Shown: positions 40,563 through 50,970 of the stretch, piece by piece
Layout of the letters: each line of letters begins with the position of its first letter
Numbering within the stretch: the first letter of the stretch is position 1
Assembly: GCF_900116385.1 (NCBI RefSeq)
Contig: NZ_FPCI01000001.1
Location: 930,001-994,000 of the forward strand
DNA: 64,000 nt
Direction: 5' to 3'
DNA from: Pseudoxanthomonas sp. YR558
GTDB lineage: Bacteria; Pseudomonadota; Gammaproteobacteria; Xanthomonadales; Xanthomonadaceae
The notes under the pieces: generated by a model
Database searches by the model: none
Seen by the model: the letters and a program-made list of their open reading frames with translations, nothing else
Told to the model about the DNA's origin: nothing
Position numbers and translations under genes: made by a program

Positions 40563-40820
40563 AGAGGGTCGCGACACCGAAATACATCCAGCGTTGGACC
40601 TAAACGGGGGAACGTTGGATGTAGGTGTGAGAAGAAACACCGAAGAAGGCGGAACGTTCCACCTTAGTGAGAGAAGAAACACCGAAAAACATCCAACGCT
40701 GGATGTTTGTGTGAGATGAAACACTGAAAAAGAGGGAACGTTGGATGTTTGTGTGAGAAGAAAGACCGGAAAACATCCAAGGGTGGATGTTTGTGTGAGG
40801 AGAGGCACTCCAGGTACCGA
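40563..40820. repeat. 42-bp minisatellite at the edge of the restriction island
   Basis: Five consecutive units of exactly 42 bp start at 40611, 40653, 40695, 40737 and 40779, with a damaged half unit before them. The consensus starts AACGTTGGATGTTTGTGTGA and continues GAAGAAACACCGAAAAACATCC. At unit junctions AAACATCCA-ACGC-TGGATGTTT forms a hairpin. Because 42 is a multiple of three the array is open in several frames, giving 14-residue periods ('SVFLLTQTSNVPPF' or 'SSHTNIQRWMFFGV' on the minus strand). The 438-base gap 40431-40868 contains no supported gene; 40431-40560 and 40821-40868 show nothing else. Confidence 0.85.
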
Positions 40821-40868
40821 CCGGTCTCCCGAGCTTATGAGCACTGGTTTGGCGTGGCGCGAGAAAGC

Positions 40869-41942
40869 TCAAAGAACGCCGATCTGCTGGCAGGCATCCA
40901 GAAACGGTTTTCTTAGGAAGTTGCAGTCCGCGTAGGGTCGGTGCTGAGCCTGGTGGGCACGCATTGCCAGGATGTCGGCGGGCTGCTTGTCGTAAGCCTG
41001 GCATTCATCGAGCACCTGCGTCAGCCAGTACTTGCCGTCATTTTCTCCACAGAGTTTGGCTTTGTAACGCTCTTCAATGCCATACACGTCCTTCCAGGTT
41101 TCGATCTCCTGCGCAATCGCAGCGGGGCCGAACTGCAGCGTGATATCTGCCGGGATCAGTTTGGCCACGTCCGAATGCTGCAAATAGATTTGAAGCTCGA
41201 TGCAGTGCGCGGCCCTAAAAGGATAGAAAACGGCACGGCGATGAACTGCTCTTGCGGGATCTTTGGGTGTGTAAGCTGGGTCCTTGCTGGTCTTGTAGCT
41301 GCTGTTACAGTGGTGACAGGCCGGGACAAGGTTGCGGAAGTTGATGGAGTTGAACGGGTACAGCGCCTTGGGCAAGTAATGGTCGTAGGCCTCACGAGGA
41401 ATGTGGTTCGGCCCGAGTAAGTCGTTCACGCCACAAAACGGGCATTTACCTTCCTTATTGGTCCCTACGAAAGTCTTATAGTGGTCGTCAATGTCGCCGA
41501 TCTTTCCGCGTAGTACTGCGAGATCTAGCAGCGACTGTGAATATAAGCCCTTGAAGAACGTGCCAAGCAGGTCGGCAATATCCTTGTGACTAACAGCGAT
41601 GTCGATGTAACGGGCAAGGTGCGTCGCCGGATCATTGGCACACACCTTCTCCAGATCATTATTGCCCTGATACCACTGCTGAAAATGATTGATCTGAACG
41701 GCGGTCAATGCCGAAAAAAGAGCGTAGATTCGCTCCACATGACCGTAGAAGAAATCGGCGCCTTTCGCGTCGGAGTAATAGAAGGCTTCCATTACCTCGC
41801 GCAGTTCCGCGTTGGCGTCGAACAGATTCAGACCGAATGGACCACTTTCCGCTCCCTTGCACCACACTTCATGAAATATGAAGTCGATGAACTCCTGCAT
41901 CCTCTCCATCTTATGAGGCACATAGGTGTACGGAAACAGCAT
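40869..41942 (-). CDS. HNH nuclease, PtuB-like partner of the AAA ATPase
   Basis: A 357-residue protein with an HNH endonuclease fold at 167-215: zinc Cys pair 'CPFCGVND' (167-170), catalytic 'AYDHYLPKALYPFNSINFRN' (His188, Asn201) and second zinc pair 'PACHHCNSSYK' (209-212). N- and C-terminal parts are helical without known domains. It is the last gene of the hsdR-hsdM-hsdS-ATPase-HNH operon, and its ATG overlaps the ATPase stop by one base. In Septu defence PtuB is such an HNH nuclease controlled by the ATPase PtuA. The 'PtuB-like' call rests on gene order and motif, not on a search. Confidence 0.8.
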   Translation of the reverse strand: MLFPYTYVPHKMERMQEFIDFIFHEVWCKGAESGPFGLNLFDANAELREVMEAFYYSDAKGADFFYGHVERIYALFSALTAVQINHFQQWYQGNNDLEKVCANDPATHLARYIDIAVSHKDIADLLGTFFKGLYSQSLLDLAVLRGKIGDIDDHYKTFVGTNKEGKCPFCGVNDLLGPNHIPREAYDHYLPKALYPFNSINFRNLVPACHHCNSSYKTSKDPAYTPKDPARAVHRRAVFYPFRAAHCIELQIYLQHSDVAKLIPADITLQFGPAAIAQEIETWKDVYGIEERYKAKLCGENDGKYWLTQVLDECQAYDKQPADILAMRAHQAQHRPYADCNFLRKPFLDACQQIGVL

Positions 41943-43816
41943 CAGCCCCGCACCTCCCTATCGCCCCGCTGATCAGCATCAAGGATGGCATTGATCAGTA
42001 GCACTTTCTCCACAGAGTCGCCGAGCTGCTGGTGAATCTCCGTGATCAAGGCTTCCTTGTCGTCGATACCCTCTTCAAAACGCGCCCGCAGCATCTCAAG
42101 CAGGGTCTGCGCATGGCCGCCGATGGTTTCGCGCTTACCGAAGGTGCTCATGGTGATCTTGTTGATCGAGGCGCCCAGCGTGTTGTAGTCCGGTTGAATG
42201 ATGCTGACCTTGCCACTGGATTTGTCTTTGGCAAATACAAGCACCTTCTCCGGCTTGCTATCGGAAATCAGGAACGGCGTGTGGGTAGTGATCAGCATCT
42301 CTTGCGCGAAATCACCGTTGCCGGGCAGGCACTGGCGCAAGCGGCTTATGAAGTTGGCACGCCAGTCAGGGTTGAAGTGCGTTTCGGGCTCGTCGAGCAG
42401 GAACAGGCTGTTGGTCTCACGGAATAGCAGGCACAAGCCGATGCTATGCAGCAATTGATGCTCGCCGTCCGACAACTCCTTGAGCATCATCGGCTCGACC
42501 ACGCCCTGCTTGGTGAAGCGCACGAACTTGAAGCGCATGATGCGCTGGTCAGATGCCAAGGTTGGCACCGTCTCGCCGACGTAGTGGCTGGTGGATTTGT
42601 AGAGATCGGCCTTCAGAGCTTCGCTGACGGCATACAGGTTGAGCGTCAACAGCACCTGAAACGCCCGAAAGAGCACCAGGGCATTGCCATCGAAGTTATC
42701 GCGAAATGCCTGCCGGGTTGCCTCATTCACCCGGTAGTCGAGCACCAATGTATCGCTGGCGTCGTCGATATAACTGAGCGTGGCACAACGCTTGAGCGCG
42801 CTCACCACCAATGAAGACTTCTCGTCGCCCTCCAGCAGCTGCAACACGTTCAGACGATAGCGGGCACTTCCTGGTTCATCAGTTTCCGACAGTGCGGGAT
42901 TGCCTTTGATGATCTCGCGGCGAACCCAATCATCAACTGATTGGCTGATCTCAGACTCTGATAGTCCGCGTGTTCGAGCTTCCGCCTGTAGTCGATTTCG
43001 TCGCTCTTGCTTCTGATCTTCATCTGCAAGATCGAAGGCGTCCAGTTGCACTGCGTCGATGGGAACTCGGCGGCGCAGGATGATGCGAAATTCCCGCAAG
43101 GCCTCGATACCCACATCCTCGCGGAAGGGCTGCAGTGTGGCCTCGTTCTGAAACAGCAGGTTGCACAGCAGGATGGCCTGGCTGAATCCACTGTCCAGAT
43201 AGGCCAAGCGTGTCTCCGGGTGGCCAGGATAGCTCAGTTGCCGGCTCAACGCATTCCAGTACTCGTCGAATTGCACGAAACGCATTTTGAAGAACGGCAG
43301 GCTGAGGATCTCGTTCTCACCCGAGGAGTAGCCCAGCACATATTGCGGCAGCAGGAGATCCCGCTCTTCATCTGTCAGACGACTGGAAGCAAAGCTCTCG
43401 GAAGGCAATGCCTTGTGGTTCTCCCAGCGTAGCCAGAGCGACCCTCCTGCCTCTTTGATTACCACAACGTGGGCGAACGTTGGACTGTCGGAGGTTCTGC
43501 GTTCCTTTGGAAGCTTGATCAAGTATTCGAGTTCATAGGCAACAGGCGAATTCTCCTGCACCTCGTCTTGGAGAGCCTCAGGCAGAAAGCTGCGGCGCAC
43601 GCGCAACACTTCCAACTGAAAGAAGATGGCTGCAAGCGCTTCAAGCAGGTTGGATTTTCCGCTGCCGTTGGGGCCGGCGCACACGAAGGGCGCAAAGTCG
43701 TTCGCGCGCTCCAGCTCATCCTGCAAACTCCATCCGGTTCGGAAGTGGTGCTCGAACCCGCAGGGCAGACTTCGAAAGCCTTTGGGGTCGGTGATCTTGA
43801 GACGCAGCAGCTTCAT
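41942..43816 (-). CDS. restriction-system-associated AAA ATPase, PtuA-like
   Basis: A 624-residue SMC/ABC-type ATPase. Walker A is 'GPNGSGKSNLLEAL' (48-61), then comes a long insert, the signature 'ELSDGEHQLLHSIGL' (about 444-458) and Walker B 'LFLLDEPETHFNPDW' (about 467-481), with a switch His in 'ITTHTPFLISD'. This matches the OLD/PtuA group and the ATPases named 'restriction system-associated' that occur in type I operons. It overlaps the hsdS stop by 4 bases and the HNH start by one. It may sense DNA or nucleotide state and license the nuclease; that is inference. Confidence 0.85.
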   Translation of the reverse strand: MKLLRLKITDPKGFRSLPCGFEHHFRTGWSLQDELERANDFAPFVCAGPNGSGKSNLLEALAAIFFQLEVLRVRRSFLPEALQDEVQENSPVAYELEYLIKLPKERRTSDSPTFAHVVVIKEAGGSLWLRWENHKALPSESFASSRLTDEERDLLLPQYVLGYSSGENEILSLPFFKMRFVQFDEYWNALSRQLSYPGHPETRLAYLDSGFSQAILLCNLLFQNEATLQPFREDVGIEALREFRIILRRRVPIDAVQLDAFDLADEDQKQERRNRLQAEARTRGLSESEISQSVDDWVRREIIKGNPALSETDEPGSARYRLNVLQLLEGDEKSSLVVSALKRCATLSYIDDASDTLVLDYRVNEATRQAFRDNFDGNALVLFRAFQVLLTLNLYAVSEALKADLYKSTSHYVGETVPTLASDQRIMRFKFVRFTKQGVVEPMMLKELSDGEHQLLHSIGLCLLFRETNSLFLLDEPETHFNPDWRANFISRLRQCLPGNGDFAQEMLITTHTPFLISDSKPEKVLVFAKDKSSGKVSIIQPDYNTLGASINKITMSTFGKRETIGGHAQTLLEMLRARFEEGIDDKEALITEIHQQLGDSVEKVLLINAILDADQRGDREVRG

Positions 43817-45426
43817 GTCTGAGCAATCCTAAGCTCAATGAGGTTGCCGAAGATCGGATTTCCTTTGTCATCATGGCCAGTGACGTTACGAGTTTGCTCG
43901 AGACGAGAGTCGCGCAGCGCATCAAAAGTCCACGATTTCAGAAAATCGTAGTCGTCTATAGCAAGGTCGTGGTCGGCATCGTCCAGCACAATCAAACGAA
44001 AGTTCATGGCGTCCAACAGCTTCGCTGCATCGAACATCTTCCCCGGCGACAGCATGGCTAGGTAGGCCTCAACCCAGAAGTGCAATGCATCCTTTCGTCC
44101 GGATGCGTTAGATAGCGATATCGTTGTTGGCAACTCGGGAAGTGACAAAGGTCGATTGGCTGCGATTTCTGGCTGCAGCTCGACCTTGGCCTTTAGGTCT
44201 CCCTGATCCATTTGCGAGGTTGGGAAAGGGACTCGCGACAGATCCAGCTCACCCTTGAAGGCCTGCTGGCTCAGAGCGCCATAGAGTGCCTCAAGATCGG
44301 CAAGGCTCTGCTGATAACGCAACTTGAGCTGATTGACGCGTTCGTGAACCTTAGCAAAGCGGTTTTGCAGCTCAATATGTGGGCGTTTTATCTTGGTCTC
44401 TTTGATGAGGCCCAAGTTGAGTCCACTCATGATCGCTCCGCGATTCTTGCTCTCGAACTGATTTAGGACAAAAGGACTGGAATGAATCGAATACGAAAGA
44501 AAAACTGGGTTTGCGATCTCCCGATTCAGCGTAATTGCAGCAAGATGCTTAGTGTTTACAGCGACAGGAATGTCGTCAGGGATTACTGCAGAGCGACCGA
44601 TGGTCCCCATGATCGTGACGATCACGTCACCCGGAAAGACGCGATAACTCTGGAGCTCCTGATATTTCTCATTCGAGATAAAGCGACGCTCGCCCCACGC
44701 AAAATAATTGTTCACGGCATTGTCGATACCCAACACTGCCACGTCCCCGTCCGTAGAGAATTCACTATGCAATAAGTTGGAGCCGAACGGCCCCGTTCGC
44801 ATGGCGCCTTTATGCTTGGCCGCGAGCTCGCGAACTTCCACCAGTGGCCAATTTTCATAGCCAGGGCTCCCAGGTCCGAACATCTCTAGAAAAACGCTCT
44901 TAAGCAGGTCGTCGAGTTGTTGCAGGTGTTGTTTGCGCTGGGCGATCAGCCCTTCCACTTTGCCGAGCAGATGGGCAATGCGGATCTGGTCGTCGAATGG
45001 CGGGAACGGTATCTCAATTTCGGCCAGCGATTTTGAATTGAGTGTTTTGCCCATCACGGCCTGGTTTGAACCGCCATAAGTTGCCGACTGCAATGCGTAG
45101 TAGAGAAACTCTGGGTGCAGCTCTTTTTCATCTTTGATTGCAAAGGCTGCAATCGCTTCGTTTGTGAAGAGATCGCAACCTGCAAATGCCATCTTGCCAA
45201 TGGTTAGCTTGAAACTGAATAGCAAAGTTCCCTTCTTAACGATTTTGCATCTGGCGCCTATTACAGCTCGATCCGTGATTTGCTCCTTCGTCTCAGTGAC
45301 GACTTTCGAATTTAAATCGCGAATTGAAACCCAGCGATGCCCCTTTCCCCAATAGCTCGGCTCGTTTCTCGGCGGTGTTCTGCCAATGGAGATATCCAAA
45401 AGCTTGGACAGCCTTTCCTGCCTCAT
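43813..45426 (-). CDS. hsdS: type I restriction-modification specificity subunit HsdS
   Basis: A 537-residue subunit with two target-recognition domains (about 1-150 and 190-365), each followed by a conserved helix ('LLGKVEGLIAQRKQHLQQLD' at about 155-190 and 'FAKVHERVNQLKLRYQQSLA' at about 360-400). Together they read the two halves of a split DNA site. A C-terminal extension of roughly 130 residues (after 'QQAFKGELDLSRV') is not part of a normal HsdS and may contact the downstream ATPase. Start and stop overlap hsdM and the ATPase gene by 4 bases each. The target sequence cannot be read from the protein. Confidence 0.93.
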   Translation of the reverse strand: MRQERLSKLLDISIGRTPPRNEPSYWGKGHRWVSIRDLNSKVVTETKEQITDRAVIGARCKIVKKGTLLFSFKLTIGKMAFAGCDLFTNEAIAAFAIKDEKELHPEFLYYALQSATYGGSNQAVMGKTLNSKSLAEIEIPFPPFDDQIRIAHLLGKVEGLIAQRKQHLQQLDDLLKSVFLEMFGPGSPGYENWPLVEVRELAAKHKGAMRTGPFGSNLLHSEFSTDGDVAVLGIDNAVNNYFAWGERRFISNEKYQELQSYRVFPGDVIVTIMGTIGRSAVIPDDIPVAVNTKHLAAITLNREIANPVFLSYSIHSSPFVLNQFESKNRGAIMSGLNLGLIKETKIKRPHIELQNRFAKVHERVNQLKLRYQQSLADLEALYGALSQQAFKGELDLSRVPFPTSQMDQGDLKAKVELQPEIAANRPLSLPELPTTISLSNASGRKDALHFWVEAYLAMLSPGKMFDAAKLLDAMNFRLIVLDDADHDLAIDDYDFLKSWTFDALRDSRLEQTRNVTGHDDKGNPIFGNLIELRIAQT

Positions 45427-47108
45427 CCCACCATCCTCTTCAATTCCAGCAACTCGCGCACGATACCGCTTTGCACCTTGGTAAGTTCCGTGTCGTCCAC
45501 CTCACCCACCTCGGCCTGAAGCAGTCGATCAAGGATCACGCCCGGCGCGTCGTAGCTCACTTCTTCGAAGACATCCTGCTTGTAGCGAGAGAGCGAAAGG
45601 TCGTAGTTGTTCTTCTCGTCGGCAATCTCGCTGAGCGGCACCATGAAGCACTGTGCGGTGCGATCGGCATTAGATGCGGCATCGCGGGTGTGATATTGGG
45701 TGACAATGTCTTGGAGGTCGCCCCAGCTGTCCCTTCCATCAGGCGTCTTCTGCTTGTTGCGCTTGTCGTCAAGCGAATAGCCATCGGCGGCCATTTCGTA
45801 GAACCAGACGTGCTCTGTGGCCGGTTTGCTCACCTTATCTTTCGGCCCCCAGACCTTGGTGAACAACAAAATTGCAGTGCTGACCCCGGCGTAGGGTTTG
45901 AAAACGCCGCTGGGTAGGGTGATCACGGCCTTCAGGTCGCAGCGCTCCACCAACATCTGACGCAACGTCTTGAAGGCCCCGCCGGAGCTGAACAACACGC
46001 CCTGTGGCACGATCACGCAAGCGGTTCCGCCCTTCTTCAGCAGGCGGTAGATGTTCTCGACAAACAGCAGCTCGGTCTTGGTGGTAGCCAGTTGCAGGGC
46101 TTCGTTAATGTCGCCCTTGTCGATGCTGCCGGTGAAGGGCGGGTTGGCCAGCACAATGTCGTACTCAGCTTCCTCGGTGTAGCCCTTGCTGAGGGTGTCC
46201 TTGTAATCGATGTTCGGCTCGTCGATGCCGTGCATCATGAGGTTCATCAGCCCAAGGCGCACCATGGTCTGGTCGATGTCATAGCCCCACAGCGAGTTGG
46301 ACAAGATGGCTCGCCGTTTTTCATCGAATGCCGCCGCCACCGAAGTGCGGATAAAGCCATCCTCATCTGGCTTGAGGTCTTTGGTGCCCGCCTTGATTGC
46401 AAGCTGTGTGACGATGTACTGGTACGCACCCAACAGAAACCCGCCCGAGCCGCAGGCAGGGTCAGCGATCTTGTGACCCAACTGCGGCTGCACCAGATCG
46501 ACAATCAGTTTGATGATGTGGCGTGGGGTGCGGAACTGACCATTCTTGCCAGCGGTCGCGATCTCGGACAGCAGGTACTCATATACGTCGCCCTGAATGT
46601 CCTGGAAGGACTGTCCTTTCTCCTCCGAGTCCTTCTCCATCACTTCGAAGATGTCGTCGATGGTCTTCACCGCTTCCACCAGCAGGGCGGGCTTGGGGAT
46701 GATGAAGACCGCGTTCTTCATGTGGTGGGTGAAGTTGGATTCGGCGCCGTTCAGGTCCTTGAGAAACGGGAACACCTTGCCCTGAACGTGCTGCAGCATC
46801 TCTTCGGCCTGCATGCGCTTGAATTCGCTCCAGCGAAGCGTGCGTTTGTCGATGGGGCGCTGTTCCGCCACAGGCCAGTTGCGTTCCTCAGGTGGAATCC
46901 AAGTGCCTTCAAACCTGGATTGATACGGATCGCTCCAGCCATCTCTTGCATCTGCCTGACGCTTCTGATCGAGCTCATCCAGCCGTTTCATGAACAGCAG
47001 GTAGGTGATCTGCTCGATGGCGGTGAGCGGGTTGCTGATGCCGCCGCTCCAGAACTTGTTCCAGAGCTGGTCGATCTTGCTTTTGAGTTCGGGGTTGTTT
47101 TGCAGCAT
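45423..47108 (-). CDS. hsdM: type I restriction-modification methyltransferase HsdM
   Basis: A 561-residue N6-adenine methyltransferase. The N-terminal helical domain ('KIDQLWNKFWSGGISNPLTA') is typical of HsdM. The SAM motif is 'IADPACGSGGFLLGAYQY' at about 215-232 and the catalytic motif 'IVLANPPFTGSIDKGD' (NPPF) at about 317. It methylates the host recognition sites as M2S and, with HsdR, forms the R2M2S complex. It starts 15 bases after hsdR and overlaps hsdS by 4 bases. Confidence 0.96.
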   Translation of the reverse strand: MLQNNPELKSKIDQLWNKFWSGGISNPLTAIEQITYLLFMKRLDELDQKRQADARDGWSDPYQSRFEGTWIPPEERNWPVAEQRPIDKRTLRWSEFKRMQAEEMLQHVQGKVFPFLKDLNGAESNFTHHMKNAVFIIPKPALLVEAVKTIDDIFEVMEKDSEEKGQSFQDIQGDVYEYLLSEIATAGKNGQFRTPRHIIKLIVDLVQPQLGHKIADPACGSGGFLLGAYQYIVTQLAIKAGTKDLKPDEDGFIRTSVAAAFDEKRRAILSNSLWGYDIDQTMVRLGLMNLMMHGIDEPNIDYKDTLSKGYTEEAEYDIVLANPPFTGSIDKGDINEALQLATTKTELLFVENIYRLLKKGGTACVIVPQGVLFSSGGAFKTLRQMLVERCDLKAVITLPSGVFKPYAGVSTAILLFTKVWGPKDKVSKPATEHVWFYEMAADGYSLDDKRNKQKTPDGRDSWGDLQDIVTQYHTRDAASNADRTAQCFMVPLSEIADEKNNYDLSLSRYKQDVFEEVSYDAPGVILDRLLQAEVGEVDDTELTKVQSGIVRELLELKRMVG

Positions 47109-47123
47109 GGTGTGCTCTGATAT

Positions 47124-49922
47124 TTAGGCAGCCAACCGTTCGGTCAGCTGCAGAATCTCGTTGATTTCAAGTGGGCTGAACACGCCACGGATGCCTTGCG
47201 GGTGGATGACCGTGAAGGGGGCGTTGATCAGGTCTTTCTTCTCCACCTTTTCGCGCTCGATGATGAAGCCCTTCAACAGGTCGAGGAACTCCATCTGCCG
47301 GCTGCTGAGCGTCGTGTGGGCGCGAATGAACTGGTCGAAGGCGGCGCTGACCTCGTCCGGGAAGCTCCTGAGCACTTCAATACCCAGGATGTGGCGGATG
47401 AACTGGATGAAGCGCGCCTTGCGGTTCTTGTAAACCTGGCGCAGCAGGTCTTCGGTGATGTGCGGGTGTTCTTTGTGCAGCAGTTCGGCCAGTTCGTTGG
47501 CCTCTTCGCTGCCCACTGTCTCGCCGTTCTTGATCTTCTTCAGCACCGGGTTGTGCGCGGTGAGTTCGACTATCAGGCTTTCCACCATTTCGCGGTAGCG
47601 GGTGATGCTGACCGCCTCGTGCTGCGGGCCGAACTCCACCCATTCCTTCCTGTTCAGTTCATCGGCCAGATCGAGATGCGTTTGTTGCTGGCCAGTGGAT
47701 TGCTCGCGGAACTTCATCAGCGGGCCGAGTTTGGCGATCAGTTCGTCGAAGGCGTCTTCATCTGCCTTGGCCCAGTAGTGGCTGGTTTGCGCGGCGCGGA
47801 TCAGGGCCTCTTCCTGCTTGACAAAGCTGACGGAGAGCGGCAGTTCGCTGATCTGCTCGACGATGCCTTCTTTGAGGGTGTCGGCTTGCTCCTTTTCCTC
47901 GCTCAAAACGGCCAGCGAGTACTCCAGCAGGTCGCGCTCGAAACGCATGGCCTTGAAGTCGGCCTCGGACACGGTGCGGAACAGCGGCTTGATTTCTGCG
48001 CGCAGGAGCTCCAGCCGGTCGTGGCTCAGGTTGATCCAGAAGTTGTCGTCGTCCAGCCGCGTCAGCGCAGCGGCGGCTTCCTTGATCACCACCGACTCTT
48101 TTGGCAGCGCCGCAATCTGCTGGCGGAGCTTGGCGATCTCCCGCTCAGCGATGTCGGCATGGCCGCTGTCCTTGGCTTTATCGATCTTGTCCAGCCGCAG
48201 GCCAACCAGTCGCACCGGCAGCGGCAACTGCGGTTTGAGCTCCTTACCCTTGGGGTTGAGCTTGAAGTATTCGAAGTTGTCCCAGCAATCGAGGATCAGA
48301 AACACTTCCTTCTCGAGGCACCAGGGCTTGGGCTTGCTGGTTTCCAGCAGGCGCGTGCCGCGCCCGACCATCTGCCAGAACTTGGTGTACGAGTAGACCG
48401 GTTTGGCGAATACCAGGTTGACGATCTCTCGTACATCGATGCCGGTATCCAGCATATCCACGCTGATGGCGATACGAGGCATGTCGTTATTGGTGAACTG
48501 ATCGAGCAAGCCGCCTTTGCCGTAGACGCGCGGGTCATCCGACACCAGCACCTTCGCAAGCTCGCCGTGGTACTGCGGGTAGAGCTTGTCGAAGATTTCT
48601 TCCATGCGCCGGGCATGGGCCTTGGTGGCGCAAAAGAAGATGGTCTTGCCCGGCAGCACGCCGTTGGCGTCCTTGATGGCCTCCTCCATGAATTCGCGGA
48701 CGATCAGGGTGTTAGTGCCCTTGTTGATCACCTGCTTTTCAAGCTGGGTGCCCTCGAAGTTGATGTCTTCGACTTCCTTACCTTGGAGGATCAGCTTTTT
48801 CTGATCCTCCAGGGAAATGGTGCGTTTACTGATGCCTTCCATCTGGAACTTGGTCTGAATCTTCATGACCTGGAAGTTGCAGAGGTACGGCGGCACGTTA
48901 TTGACAGCCTCTTCATAGGTGTAGGCAAAGGTGGGAATGCCGTCTTCGCAATGAAAGAGCTGAAAGGTGTTGTGGTCGATGATGTCGGTAGGGGTGGCCG
49001 TCAGGCCCAGCGTGATCGCTTTGAAGTAGTCGAGCACTTCGCCGAAAGTGTTGTAGATGGAGCGATGACTCTCATCGACGACGATGAAATCGAAGAAATG
49101 CGGCGACAGGTGCTGCCCGTCGTCCCGAATGATGTTCAGCATCGTCGGATAGGTGGCGACATACACACGGCGGTCCGTGGCAATCAGCTTTTCACCCACA
49201 TTAGGCCAGCGCGGCTCGTTCGGCATATGCTCCTTGAAGGCGGCCAGTGCCTGCTCGCGTAACGCAATGCGGTCTACGAGAAACAGCACCTTTTCTGCAT
49301 GCCCGGCGCGCATCAAGGCATCGACCATGGCAATGCAGGTGCGCGTCTTGCCTGTGCCGGTGGCCATCACAAGCAGGAAATCACGCTTCTTCTGCTCGAT
49401 GCCTTCAAGCACCGAGCGAATCGCGCGGATCTGGTAGTCGCGTCCGGCAATCGAGGTGTTGATGAATTCCTGTGTCAGCGGCTTGCGGTTACGGCGGATG
49501 TAGGCGAAGCGCTCCAGGTCGTCACGGGAGGGAAAGCCGAGCACTCTGCGTGGCGGGGCGTTCTCCAAGTCCCAGAAATACAGATCATGGCCGTTGGTGT
49601 AGAAGCAGAACGGCAGCTCACCGCCCAGCTGCTTCTGGACGTTGTAGCAGTACTGCTTAGCCTGCTCACGGCCATTGGCGGCATCACGGCTAGTCTTCTT
49701 GGCCTCGATCACTGCCAAGGGTTTTCCATCTTTGCCGAGCAGGACGTAGTCGCTGAACTGATGGCCCTGGTATTCGGTGCGTGGCTCGGCCACACCTTCT
49801 GTTGGCACAGTGAGAATGTCGAATTCTTCGATGACCTGAGTCTGGTCGTTGACGTTCCAGCCTGCTACCGCGAGCTGCTGGTCAATCAAGTCGGCTCGTG
49901 TTTGCGCCTCGGACTTAGACAT
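47124..49922 (-). CDS. hsdR: type I restriction enzyme subunit HsdR (EcoEI-like)
   Basis: A 932-residue motor-nuclease. The N-terminal nuclease domain has 'FSDYVLLGKDGKPLAVIEAK' (PD-(D/E)xK: Asp, then ExK). The SF2 translocase has Walker A 'MATGTGKTRTCIAMVDAL', 'FIVVDESHRSIYNTFG' (DESH), 'LTATPTD' and motif VI 'QMVGRGTRLLETS'. A C-terminal helical domain ('IRHILGIEVLRSFPDEVSAA') binds HsdM/HsdS. It translocates DNA using ATP and cuts far from unmethylated sites. It is the first gene of the operon; no clear promoter was found in the 110 bases upstream. Confidence 0.96.
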   Translation of the reverse strand: MSKSEAQTRADLIDQQLAVAGWNVNDQTQVIEEFDILTVPTEGVAEPRTEYQGHQFSDYVLLGKDGKPLAVIEAKKTSRDAANGREQAKQYCYNVQKQLGGELPFCFYTNGHDLYFWDLENAPPRRVLGFPSRDDLERFAYIRRNRKPLTQEFINTSIAGRDYQIRAIRSVLEGIEQKKRDFLLVMATGTGKTRTCIAMVDALMRAGHAEKVLFLVDRIALREQALAAFKEHMPNEPRWPNVGEKLIATDRRVYVATYPTMLNIIRDDGQHLSPHFFDFIVVDESHRSIYNTFGEVLDYFKAITLGLTATPTDIIDHNTFQLFHCEDGIPTFAYTYEEAVNNVPPYLCNFQVMKIQTKFQMEGISKRTISLEDQKKLILQGKEVEDINFEGTQLEKQVINKGTNTLIVREFMEEAIKDANGVLPGKTIFFCATKAHARRMEEIFDKLYPQYHGELAKVLVSDDPRVYGKGGLLDQFTNNDMPRIAISVDMLDTGIDVREIVNLVFAKPVYSYTKFWQMVGRGTRLLETSKPKPWCLEKEVFLILDCWDNFEYFKLNPKGKELKPQLPLPVRLVGLRLDKIDKAKDSGHADIAEREIAKLRQQIAALPKESVVIKEAAAALTRLDDDNFWINLSHDRLELLRAEIKPLFRTVSEADFKAMRFERDLLEYSLAVLSEEKEQADTLKEGIVEQISELPLSVSFVKQEEALIRAAQTSHYWAKADEDAFDELIAKLGPLMKFREQSTGQQQTHLDLADELNRKEWVEFGPQHEAVSITRYREMVESLIVELTAHNPVLKKIKNGETVGSEEANELAELLHKEHPHITEDLLRQVYKNRKARFIQFIRHILGIEVLRSFPDEVSAAFDQFIRAHTTLSSRQMEFLDLLKGFIIEREKVEKKDLINAPFTVIHPQGIRGVFSPLEINEILQLTERLAA

Positions 49923-50033
49923 GCGGTGCCCCCCCTGTGTTCTCGGTCCGCCGTCTACGCAGCGTGAACTACCGAGATTCTGTCACAGGAGGCAGGTCGG
50001 GGTGGCGCCGACGCTAGGCGCTTTTCCTACTCC

Positions 50034-50336
50034 TCAATCCCTCAACACCAACGTCGGGTTCTCATCGATCGTCCCATCCTCGTTGACCACCACATAGCGA
50101 CCTTCGCGGTTGAACAGCACGGGGATGGGCGTCTTGAAGAGCGGGCGGCGGACGAACTTCAGGTGCCAGCGGAAGTTTTCCATCGTGTGGATGGTGGCCT
50201 GCTGCGCGGGCGTGAGGCCGGCCAGCAGCGTGGCGTCGTCGTGCTTGGGAGCGCCCTTGCGGCGCTCGGGCGTGCGGGGTGCGGCGCCGGGGGCGTCCGG
50301 GGGTGGGGTGTCGCCTGGGCGGTGCGGATCCGACAT
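50034..50336 (-). CDS. small conserved protein, paralogue 1
   Basis: A 100-residue protein with a disordered Pro/Arg-rich N-terminus and a conserved core 'LTPAQQATIHTMENFRWHLK', 'FVRRPLFKTPIPVLFNREGR' and 'VVVNEDGTIDENPTLVLRD'. The same core is in the next gene. No named family was recognised; it seems to be a xanthomonad protein that occurs near purA. The convergent restriction operon ends about 9 kb away, so this gene marks the return of core genome. Confidence 0.65.
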   Translation of the reverse strand: MSDPHRPGDTPPPDAPGAAPRTPERRKGAPKHDDATLLAGLTPAQQATIHTMENFRWHLKFVRRPLFKTPIPVLFNREGRYVVVNEDGTIDENPTLVLRD

Positions 50337-50544: not shown

Positions 50545-50859
50545 TCAGGCGCGCAGGACGAGCGTCTGGCTTTCGTCGAGGGTGCCGTCTTCCTGGATGA
50601 CCACGTGGCGCGTGTGGTCGCGGTCGAACAGCACCGGGATGGGCGCCTGGAACAGCGGACGGCGCACGAAGGCCAACTTCCACTGGAAGATCTCCAGCGC
50701 TTCCAGCGTCATGACCTGCGCGGGGGTGAGGCCGGCGCGCAGCGCATCGCCCGACGGCGCGGGCTTGCGGCGCTCGGACGCACGCGGCGCGGCCGCGGCG
50801 GGTGCGACGGACGGCCAGGGGCCGGTGATGACGGCGGATTGGGCAGCATTGCGATACAT
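50545..50859 (-). CDS. small conserved protein, paralogue 2
   Basis: A 104-residue homologue of the preceding product ('GLTPAQVMTLEALEIFQWKL', 'FVRRPLFQAPIPVLFDRDHT', 'VVIQEDGTLDESQTLVLRA'). The two C-terminal 65 residues agree at well over half the positions, so the genes arose by tandem duplication. GGAG is about 10 bases before the ATG at 50859; an ATG at 50874 would add five residues. Function unknown. The 208-base gap to the other paralogue holds a 9-bp GC-rich hairpin (50375-50394) without a U-tract. Confidence 0.65.
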   Translation of the reverse strand: MYRNAAQSAVITGPWPSVAPAAAAPRASERRKPAPSGDALRAGLTPAQVMTLEALEIFQWKLAFVRRPLFQAPIPVLFDRDHTRHVVIQEDGTLDESQTLVLRA

Positions 50860-50970
50860 GGGGGGCAACTCCATCGACTACGGGCGACACCTGATGTTTC
50901 TAACGGCAGGGATCGGCCGCTATTTAGGGTCGTGATGACGTTGCAAGCCGCGTGCCGAAATGAAGCGCGG

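Follow-up and report, generated by a model that had tools for sequence, protein, structure and literature searches.

Why should a type I restriction-modification (RM) operon run on into genes for an ATPase and an HNH nuclease, a pair that elsewhere forms the stand-alone defence system Septu? The question arises from a window of 64,000 nucleotides (the whole stretch of DNA analysed here, positions 930,001 to 994,000 of contig NZ_FPCI01000001.1 of Pseudoxanthomonas sp. YR558), in which ORF (open reading frame) calls place five consecutive genes on the minus strand, with products of 932, 561, 537, 624 and 357 amino acids. The first three are hsdR (47124..49922), a restriction subunit with an EcoEI-type C-terminus (Pfam ResIII 1.1e-40, EcoEI_R_C 7.2e-27, HSDR_N 5.2e-13), hsdM (45423..47108), an N6-adenine methyltransferase gene (N6_Mtase 1.4e-59, HsdM_N 9.1e-20), and hsdS (43813..45426), the specificity subunit, in which Methylase_S (3e-24) matches two stretches and an extra C-terminal domain follows. 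All three scored above the Pfam cut-offs. The HsdR motifs SDYVLL, (I/V)EAKK, Walker A and DESH were conserved in nearly all of 59 aligned sequences, the HsdM motif NPPF was present in 65 of 66 (the remaining one has a gap there), and the HsdS spacer regions 141-180 and 381-400 were conserved. R, M and an S with two target recognition domains are thus all present with intact motifs, as in an EcoEI-like type I RM system. The ATPase gene (41942..43816) and the HNH gene (40869..41942) complete the operon. An earlier model-made annotation of the sequence, here called the original prediction, had given the same coordinates, lengths and R/M/S identities. It had also described four overlapping junctions from hsdM on; three overlap, hsdM-hsdS and hsdS-ATPase by 4 bp (ATGA) and ATPase-HNH by 1 bp (TGATG), and hsdR and hsdM are separated by a 15-bp spacer. 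The answer we propose, at a confidence slightly short of even, is that the operon is a composite defence system, in which the type I RM enzyme (EcoEI-like R, M and S) is permanently coupled to a PtuA-PtuB effector.

The original prediction compared the last two proteins to PtuA and PtuB, the Septu subunits, and this comparison held, strongly for the ATPase and by structure for the nuclease. The ATPase belongs to the PtuA-type ABC (ATP-binding cassette) proteins: it scored 802.7 bits against the NCBIfam model TIGR04435 (restrict_AAA_1), whose curated cut-off is 300, and 5.9e-53 against PADLOC PtuA1. Among PDB chains the best match was 22bu_B ('AAA family ATPase', 1.4e-6), with PtuA-named chains at 1.7e-5 to 2.6e-4; the score against the NCBIfam retron-PtuA model was 40.9 bits, below its cut-off of 500. 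Residues G48, N50, G51, G53, K54, S55, S449-E452, D475, E476 and H512 are kept in at least 97% of 78 sequences, a set that includes the Lys54 singled out in the original prediction. By sequence the HNH protein is only weakly related to PtuB (PADLOC 3.6e-8). The PDB profile search with its alignment returned nothing meaningful (best E 0.33), and Foldseek against the PDB found no match for its model at E 0.001. When the model was re-examined with VIA-align, and only then, the three best structural matches were PtuB-sized chains of retron PtuA/PtuB complexes, at 10-11% identity. His188, proposed earlier as catalytic together with Asn201, is invariant in 47 aligned sequences, as are Asn204 and Asn213, and Asn201 is kept in at least 90%. 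The spacing of His188 and Asn204 equals that of H75 and N91 in PtuB, and mutation of these two was reported to abolish Septu immunity (PMC13096335). Because of this spacing and the invariance of the other three residues, Asn201 is probably not the catalytic residue, Asn204 being the better candidate. A search of phage records with the ATPase gave no relative at 1e-10.

The window's own genome also holds two stand-alone Septu-like pairs. One (L142, 3930-6244) scored 251 bits for PtuA1 and 110 bits for PtuB1; the other (L143, 3530-5528) consists of a PtuA1 match of 526 bits followed by an HNH-like ORF. PDB searches with the two stand-alone PtuB-like proteins, made as a check on chain names, did not have the three chains matched by the window HNH model among the matches listed.

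Are the two extra genes a fixed part of the operon? GTDB species genomes were searched with the ATPase, which gave 90 confirmed matches, and the best 80, corresponding to 79 distinct loci, were retained. In a profile search the order R-M-S-A-H (A for ATPase, H for HNH) recurred in the 79 loci as far as the contigs reach, with S and A in every locus; 77 have H, 74 have M and 65 have R. The 16 loci with a missing gene end at a contig edge on that side, although in L104 part of hsdM would be expected within the 920 bp before hsdS and is absent there. From the record titles we take the loci to span about ten phyla (Pseudomonadota, Bacteroidota, Chlorobiota, Desulfobacterota, Cyanobacteriota, Bacillota, Chloroflexota, Planctomycetota, Verrucomicrobiota and Nitrospirota among them). 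In 74 of the 79 loci the ATPase gene overlaps hsdS or follows it within 6 bp, and in the other five it follows after 12-54 bp. Between the ATPase and HNH genes the gap does not exceed 7 bp in 76 of 77 loci (exactly a 1-bp overlap in 62) and is 256 bp in L104. These gaps were computed from ORFs starting at the first ATG, GTG or TTG, so that some overlaps are overstated. Gaps above 60 bp were found at R-M (23 of 65) and M-S (6 of 74), often with an inserted gene; we take these inserts to be KilA-N-, DinD-, RhuM-, DUF1016- and Schlafen-AlbA-like, and the sole gap gene that was checked, in L126, is SLFN_AlbA_2 by Pfam. By gap size, no gene lies within the S-A or A-H junctions of the 79 loci, except perhaps in the L104 gap. 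Outside this set, in L160, a RhuM-like gene sits between S and A.

The five proteins have also diverged together. Over 52 complete five-gene sets, the window included, pairwise distances correlated between R and M (rho 0.937), M and A (0.893), A and H (0.740) and S and H (0.614), and none of 499 permutations reached any of these values. In the 27 closest sets, H follows the other proteins only loosely (0.14 to 0.32). The recurrent order and the covarying distances bear out the earlier claim that the ATPase and the HNH protein are part of the system and not random neighbours. The order R-M-S-A-H extends to a divergent lineage (G199, L140), in which R is only 30% identical. Elsewhere, L139 (7853-13486, genome G050) is divergent and rearranged to S-A-H-M, with the ATPase split over two overlapping frames, and in Acidithiobacillus marinus (L080, 7516-11509) the ATPase gene is divided between two ORFs separated by about 2 kb, which looks like the result of an insertion.

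We then asked with which type I enzymes the pair occurs, sampling by HsdM. At 1e-100, HsdM was found in 14 of 274 genomes of the class: the window's own, G555 (84% identical) and 12 with at most 51% identity. No pair was found in the stretches fetched for these 12 distant systems; for one of them, L136, the short contig contains hsdM alone. Two of the 12 have different ATPases beside hsdS: in these distant type I operons an AAA ATPase (L132, 3965-5665, AAA_15/DUF3696; L135, 10196-11464, AAA_15/AAA_21) stands right after hsdS or between hsdS and hsdR. At 1e-180, HsdM was found in 6 of 398 genomes of the order, and all six, the own genome included, carry the pair; two of them (G302 and G938) are the loci L034 and L035 of the first set. 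In 5426 Escherichia coli genomes, blastn detected hsdM in 95 and the pair in 96. In these samples from class, order and E. coli, then, the pair goes mainly with one HsdM clade.

G555 is the informative relative. Its operon is R-M-S with two inserts, its HsdS ends at 429 amino acids, and the place of the pair is taken by a 735-aa ATPase (L126, 1824-5317; PADLOC PDC-S46, 757 bits), again with a 4-bp overlap with hsdS. A wider partnership between PDC-S46 and type I RM systems is not supported, since no hsdM or hsdS is annotated near it in the four plasmid neighbourhoods viewed (of 25 records). In one of these a gene annotated as 'restriction endonuclease' lies at a distance of about 6 kb; the gene tables concerned are incomplete. 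At 1e-60 PDC-S46 was detected in one of 229 genomes, G555 itself, and it had no blastn match in E. coli. With neither hsdM nor hsdS annotated near it in the plasmids viewed, it therefore seems to be an otherwise independent effector that occupies the pair's slot in G555.

What could hold the effector to the enzyme? A candidate is the HsdS tail (about residues 434-537; 43816..44127, minus strand), which the original prediction had overlooked. Beyond about residue 400, HsdS has no meaningful Pfam or PDB match. A model of the tail (145 aa, 37 sequences), confident from about its residue 41, consists of three helices and a beta-hairpin. Foldseek found no PDB match for it at E 0.001. VIA-align placed a Wadjet JetABC chain on top (6.4), followed by LmrR (6.3), PhnF (6.2) and cullin WHB (5.8). 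We take these to be largely winged-helix proteins, and the model supports a winged-helix-like arrangement, with no relative identified by it. A tail profile scored at least 15 bits in 36 of 36 training loci. Of the 53 held-out specificity genes from pair-carrying systems 35 reached this score, and none of the 12 systems lacking the pair did. The held-out set includes an hsdS fragment (L056). It also includes two near-duplicates, as L157 and L035 are one locus and L147 is nearly identical to L045; without them the count is 33 of 51. The 12 systems lacking the pair are G555 and 11 of the distant ones, L136 being left out. The 18 weak-scoring tails that accompany the pair come mostly from distant lineages; by our reading, an L-x-Q-x-F-D ending can still be recognised for these in many rows of an alignment that also covers the spacer before the tail (A2). 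One Gln is invariant in 35 of 35 sequences of this alignment. Searched against 299 genomes of the phylum, the A2 profile matched the window's own genome and G050, a carrier of the pair, and beyond these gave a single weak match of 21.4 bits, a 708-aa ORF without other matches to the five proteins. The G555 HsdS is negative with the tail-only profile and still scores 37 bits with A2.

How might such a composite work? We suggest that the C-terminal winged-helix-like domain of HsdS, which is encoded beside the effector genes and absent from the only close relative that lost the effector, most likely docks PtuA-PtuB on the M2S core (two HsdM and one HsdS). In the resting cell, this core would methylate the host DNA and keep PtuA-PtuB latent. 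Disturbance of M2S, by an anti-restriction protein of a phage or plasmid or by another insult, would release or license PtuA-PtuB; the ATPase would then activate the HNH nuclease, and cutting of nucleic acid (tRNA or DNA, as with characterised PtuAB proteins) would abort the infection. The anatomy, the family and fold assignments, the fixed operon, the co-divergence, the joint occurrence of tail and effector and the single effector swap are observed, whereas docking, latency, trigger and target are inferred. We favour this guard model because of two precedents. PrrC of EcoprrI is kept silent by the type I enzyme to which it is linked, and T4 Stp activates it (PMC12707154; PMC3506569; PMC2610378); a coupling of RM to suicide effectors was proposed in general terms in 2012 (PMC3506569). 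In the second precedent, retron-Eco7 PtuAB is toxic alone, is neutralised by the reverse transcriptase (RT) and multicopy single-stranded DNA (msDNA), and depletes tRNA-Tyr (PMC11555353). By analogy, the RM core would play the part that RT-msDNA plays for PtuAB in type I-A retrons, and the logic would be that of PrrC. It is tempting to go further and regard M-S as a sensor chassis and the HsdS tail as a socket, with HsdR dispensable and the effector swappable (as with PDC-S46 in G555); this extension we regard as rather unlikely, if worth stating. If it is true, 'restriction' and 'guard' immunity would be two outputs of one complex, and M-S-PtuA-PtuB without HsdR would be a restriction-less, methylase-guarded immune system. 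An RM-fixed Septu pairing with an extra HsdS domain would itself be a third mode of control beyond the stand-alone and retron modes, and would add to PrrC a second, testable case of guarding by an RM enzyme. It would also account for strains that retain hsdM-hsdS and an effector but have no hsdR.

Such strains are found in E. coli. Ten of the 96 pair-carrying genomes have the cognate hsdR, and the close hsdM was found in exactly these 10 accessions. In 85 of the 96 the ATPase-HNH genes are at least 99% identical and blastn detected no hsdR; these match in number the 85 genomes with a second hsdM type. The annotation viewed in three of them contains M, S and the pair, with hsdS cut by IS3 in one, and tblastn of HsdR against the R-less locus L148 gave no match. 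A Priestia plasmid is arranged M-S-A-H with no adjacent R annotated, and it is not among the HsdR matches listed (best 15 of 39). HsdR thus appears dispensable in places, and if the pair is functional in the 85 genomes, its action cannot depend solely on a failure of HsdR cleavage. Failed restriction had been offered in the original prediction as a possible trigger, beside an encounter with modified phage DNA; neither is supported by the present observations. The R-less E. coli locus lies in a region resembling an integrative and conjugative element (ICE), with an annotated ArdC family gene about 1 kb away (L148, 19149-20096). The E. coli GN02350 locus with R (L147, 2-4596) is a few kb from a CBASS (cyclic-oligonucleotide-based anti-phage signalling system) operon, as is a remnant lacking R, M and S (L208).

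These R-less loci suit a different coupling, in which M2S finds unmethylated sites and the HsdS tail loads PtuA-PtuB there. The pair would then serve as a further restriction nuclease, beside HsdR or in its place, guided by methylation status, and would not be a released toxin. We consider this unlikely, though to be taken seriously. The kept methylase motif speaks for it, as does a stand-alone Septu PtuAB that was reported to target DNA (PMC11555353). It is opposed by HsdR itself, with which a second nuclease would be redundant and which is present in 65 of the 79 loci, the other 14 ending at a contig edge, and by tRNA-Tyr as the target not only of retron-Eco7 PtuAB but also of Septu EcB88, which cleaves it (PMC13096335). 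Moreover, the 85 near-identical E. coli cases may stem from one acquisition. Several observations weigh against the guard model, in particular against strict lethality of an unguarded effector. In five of the 79 loci M or S is broken by ORF calls and the pair is intact (L085 being probably a contig end), and in E. coli EC-107 an IS3 lies in hsdS beside an intact pair; three loci show the reverse, a broken pair with intact M and S, and one shows both. Broken M or S with an intact pair would fit recruitment better, or else draft errors or silent genes. The association of tail and pair is weakened as well, since 11 of the 12 systems without the pair are also distant enzymes, and G555 alone separates the pair from the clade. 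A choice between latency and recruitment cannot be made from sequence.

That confounding of tail and pair with enzyme clade would also suit an independent Septu, merely travelling with the type I cassette in mobile islands without functional coupling. The stand-alone pairs in the window's own genome (L142, L143) show that such units exist, and in other type I operons the place between hsdS and hsdR is taken by different modules, DarTG2 or an ATPase pair (PMC12255303). We find this explanation improbable, given an ATPase gene within 54 bp of hsdS in all 79 loci, S-A and A-H junctions that stay gene-free when the other junctions accept genes (with the reservations on L104 and L160 noted above), and the co-divergence and co-occurrence of tail and pair. 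A selfish role is about as improbable, or slightly more so: M-S would be the antitoxin to a PtuAB toxin, the cassette would stabilise itself or its element, and phage defence would be secondary. Locations in ICE-like regions and on plasmids are in line with it, as is the lone E. coli record viewed with the pair and without R, M and S, in which IS3 directly precedes an ATPase gene lacking its 5' end; broken M or S alongside an intact pair and cassette-free sites in close relatives, by which the cassette can be absent, argue against it. The guard model is the reading we prefer.

Among known systems the operon resembles several and coincides with none of those compared. Like stand-alone Septu and type I-A retrons, it has an ABC ATPase followed by an HNH protein with a PtuB-like model and H/N spacing, but the pair (624 and 357 aa) stands at the end of the type I RM operon in all 79 loci fetched; the genes upstream are hsdR, hsdM and hsdS, and no RT match was found among the five proteins in Pfam or NCBIfam. 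With PrrC in EcoprrI, a type IC system with an anticodon nuclease, it shares an effector gene at a type I RM operon, a nucleotide-binding nuclease effector and, by analogy, the proposed latency through the RM complex. The window effector, however, is encoded by two genes, ATPase and HNH, instead of a single chain, R is EcoEI-like and HsdS has the extra tail; no PrrC or RloC family appeared in Pfam, NCBIfam, or the PADLOC matches listed (best 25 of 117 for the ATPase, best 25 of 50 for HNH). The phage anti-restriction-induced system PARIS (AriA-AriB) also pairs an ATPase with a nuclease, and the AAA_21 ATPase of the operon is related to AriA (3.2e-17). AriB is a TOPRIM nuclease, whereas the window partner has a PtuB-like HNH model and no Pfam TOPRIM match. 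PARIS senses anti-restriction, and the window pair differs in being hard-wired to an RM operon. The methylation-associated defence system MADS combines, by its model names, a methylase, an HsdS-like subunit and an AAA ATPase; unlike MADS the window has a full type I R, and the scores for MAD2 (120.8 against a cut-off of 720 bits), MAD3 (28.6 against 420) and MAD5 (37.1 against 400) are all far below threshold. The window ATPase is a member of TIGR04435, a hypothetical equivalog whose NCBI name, 'restriction system-associated', the original prediction had also overlooked; it is plain from this name that a connection between the ATPase and restriction had been noticed before, but it says nothing of the HNH partner, the HsdS tail or a mechanism. 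Type I operons that contain DarTG2 or an ATPase pair have been published (PMC12255303). Among the matches listed from the open PubMed Central literature, preprints aside, we recognised no account of the five-gene system, of its nuclease as PtuB-like, of the tail on HsdS, of the exchanged effector or of the form without R, which is not proof that none exists.

Finally, the five genes lie in an inserted segment (40804..50031) with a GC content of 0.559, compared with 0.679 in the rest of the window, in agreement with the lower GC noted in the original prediction. Window positions 40803 and 50032 have matches in the congener G1063 that are only 143 bp apart, and part of that stretch also resembles the 42-bp repeats adjoining the site; in G882, less exactly, the matches to 39874 and 50032 are about 0.3 kb apart. 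Because these matches flank a near-empty site, the block is, on this comparison, a cassette of the five genes that was acquired or, in those relatives, lost. No direct repeats of at least 10 bp were found at its borders. Between 40500 and 50300, promoter-like sites (3, versus 3.6 in shuffled sequence, standard deviation 1.8) and terminator-like sites (14 versus 9.9, standard deviation 3.3) were near shuffle level. At 9.2 kb the cassette is compact enough to be moved to a laboratory strain, where docking, latency and trigger would be separately testable. Just outside the insertion lies a tandem repeat (40611-40803, 4.6 copies of a 42-bp unit), and similar stretches match other sites of the own genome and of congeners. 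On the other side, two similar short ORFs (50034-50336 and 50545-50874; 100 and 109 aa) adjoin the insertion as an apparent tandem duplication, and congeners have several separate matches to this stretch.

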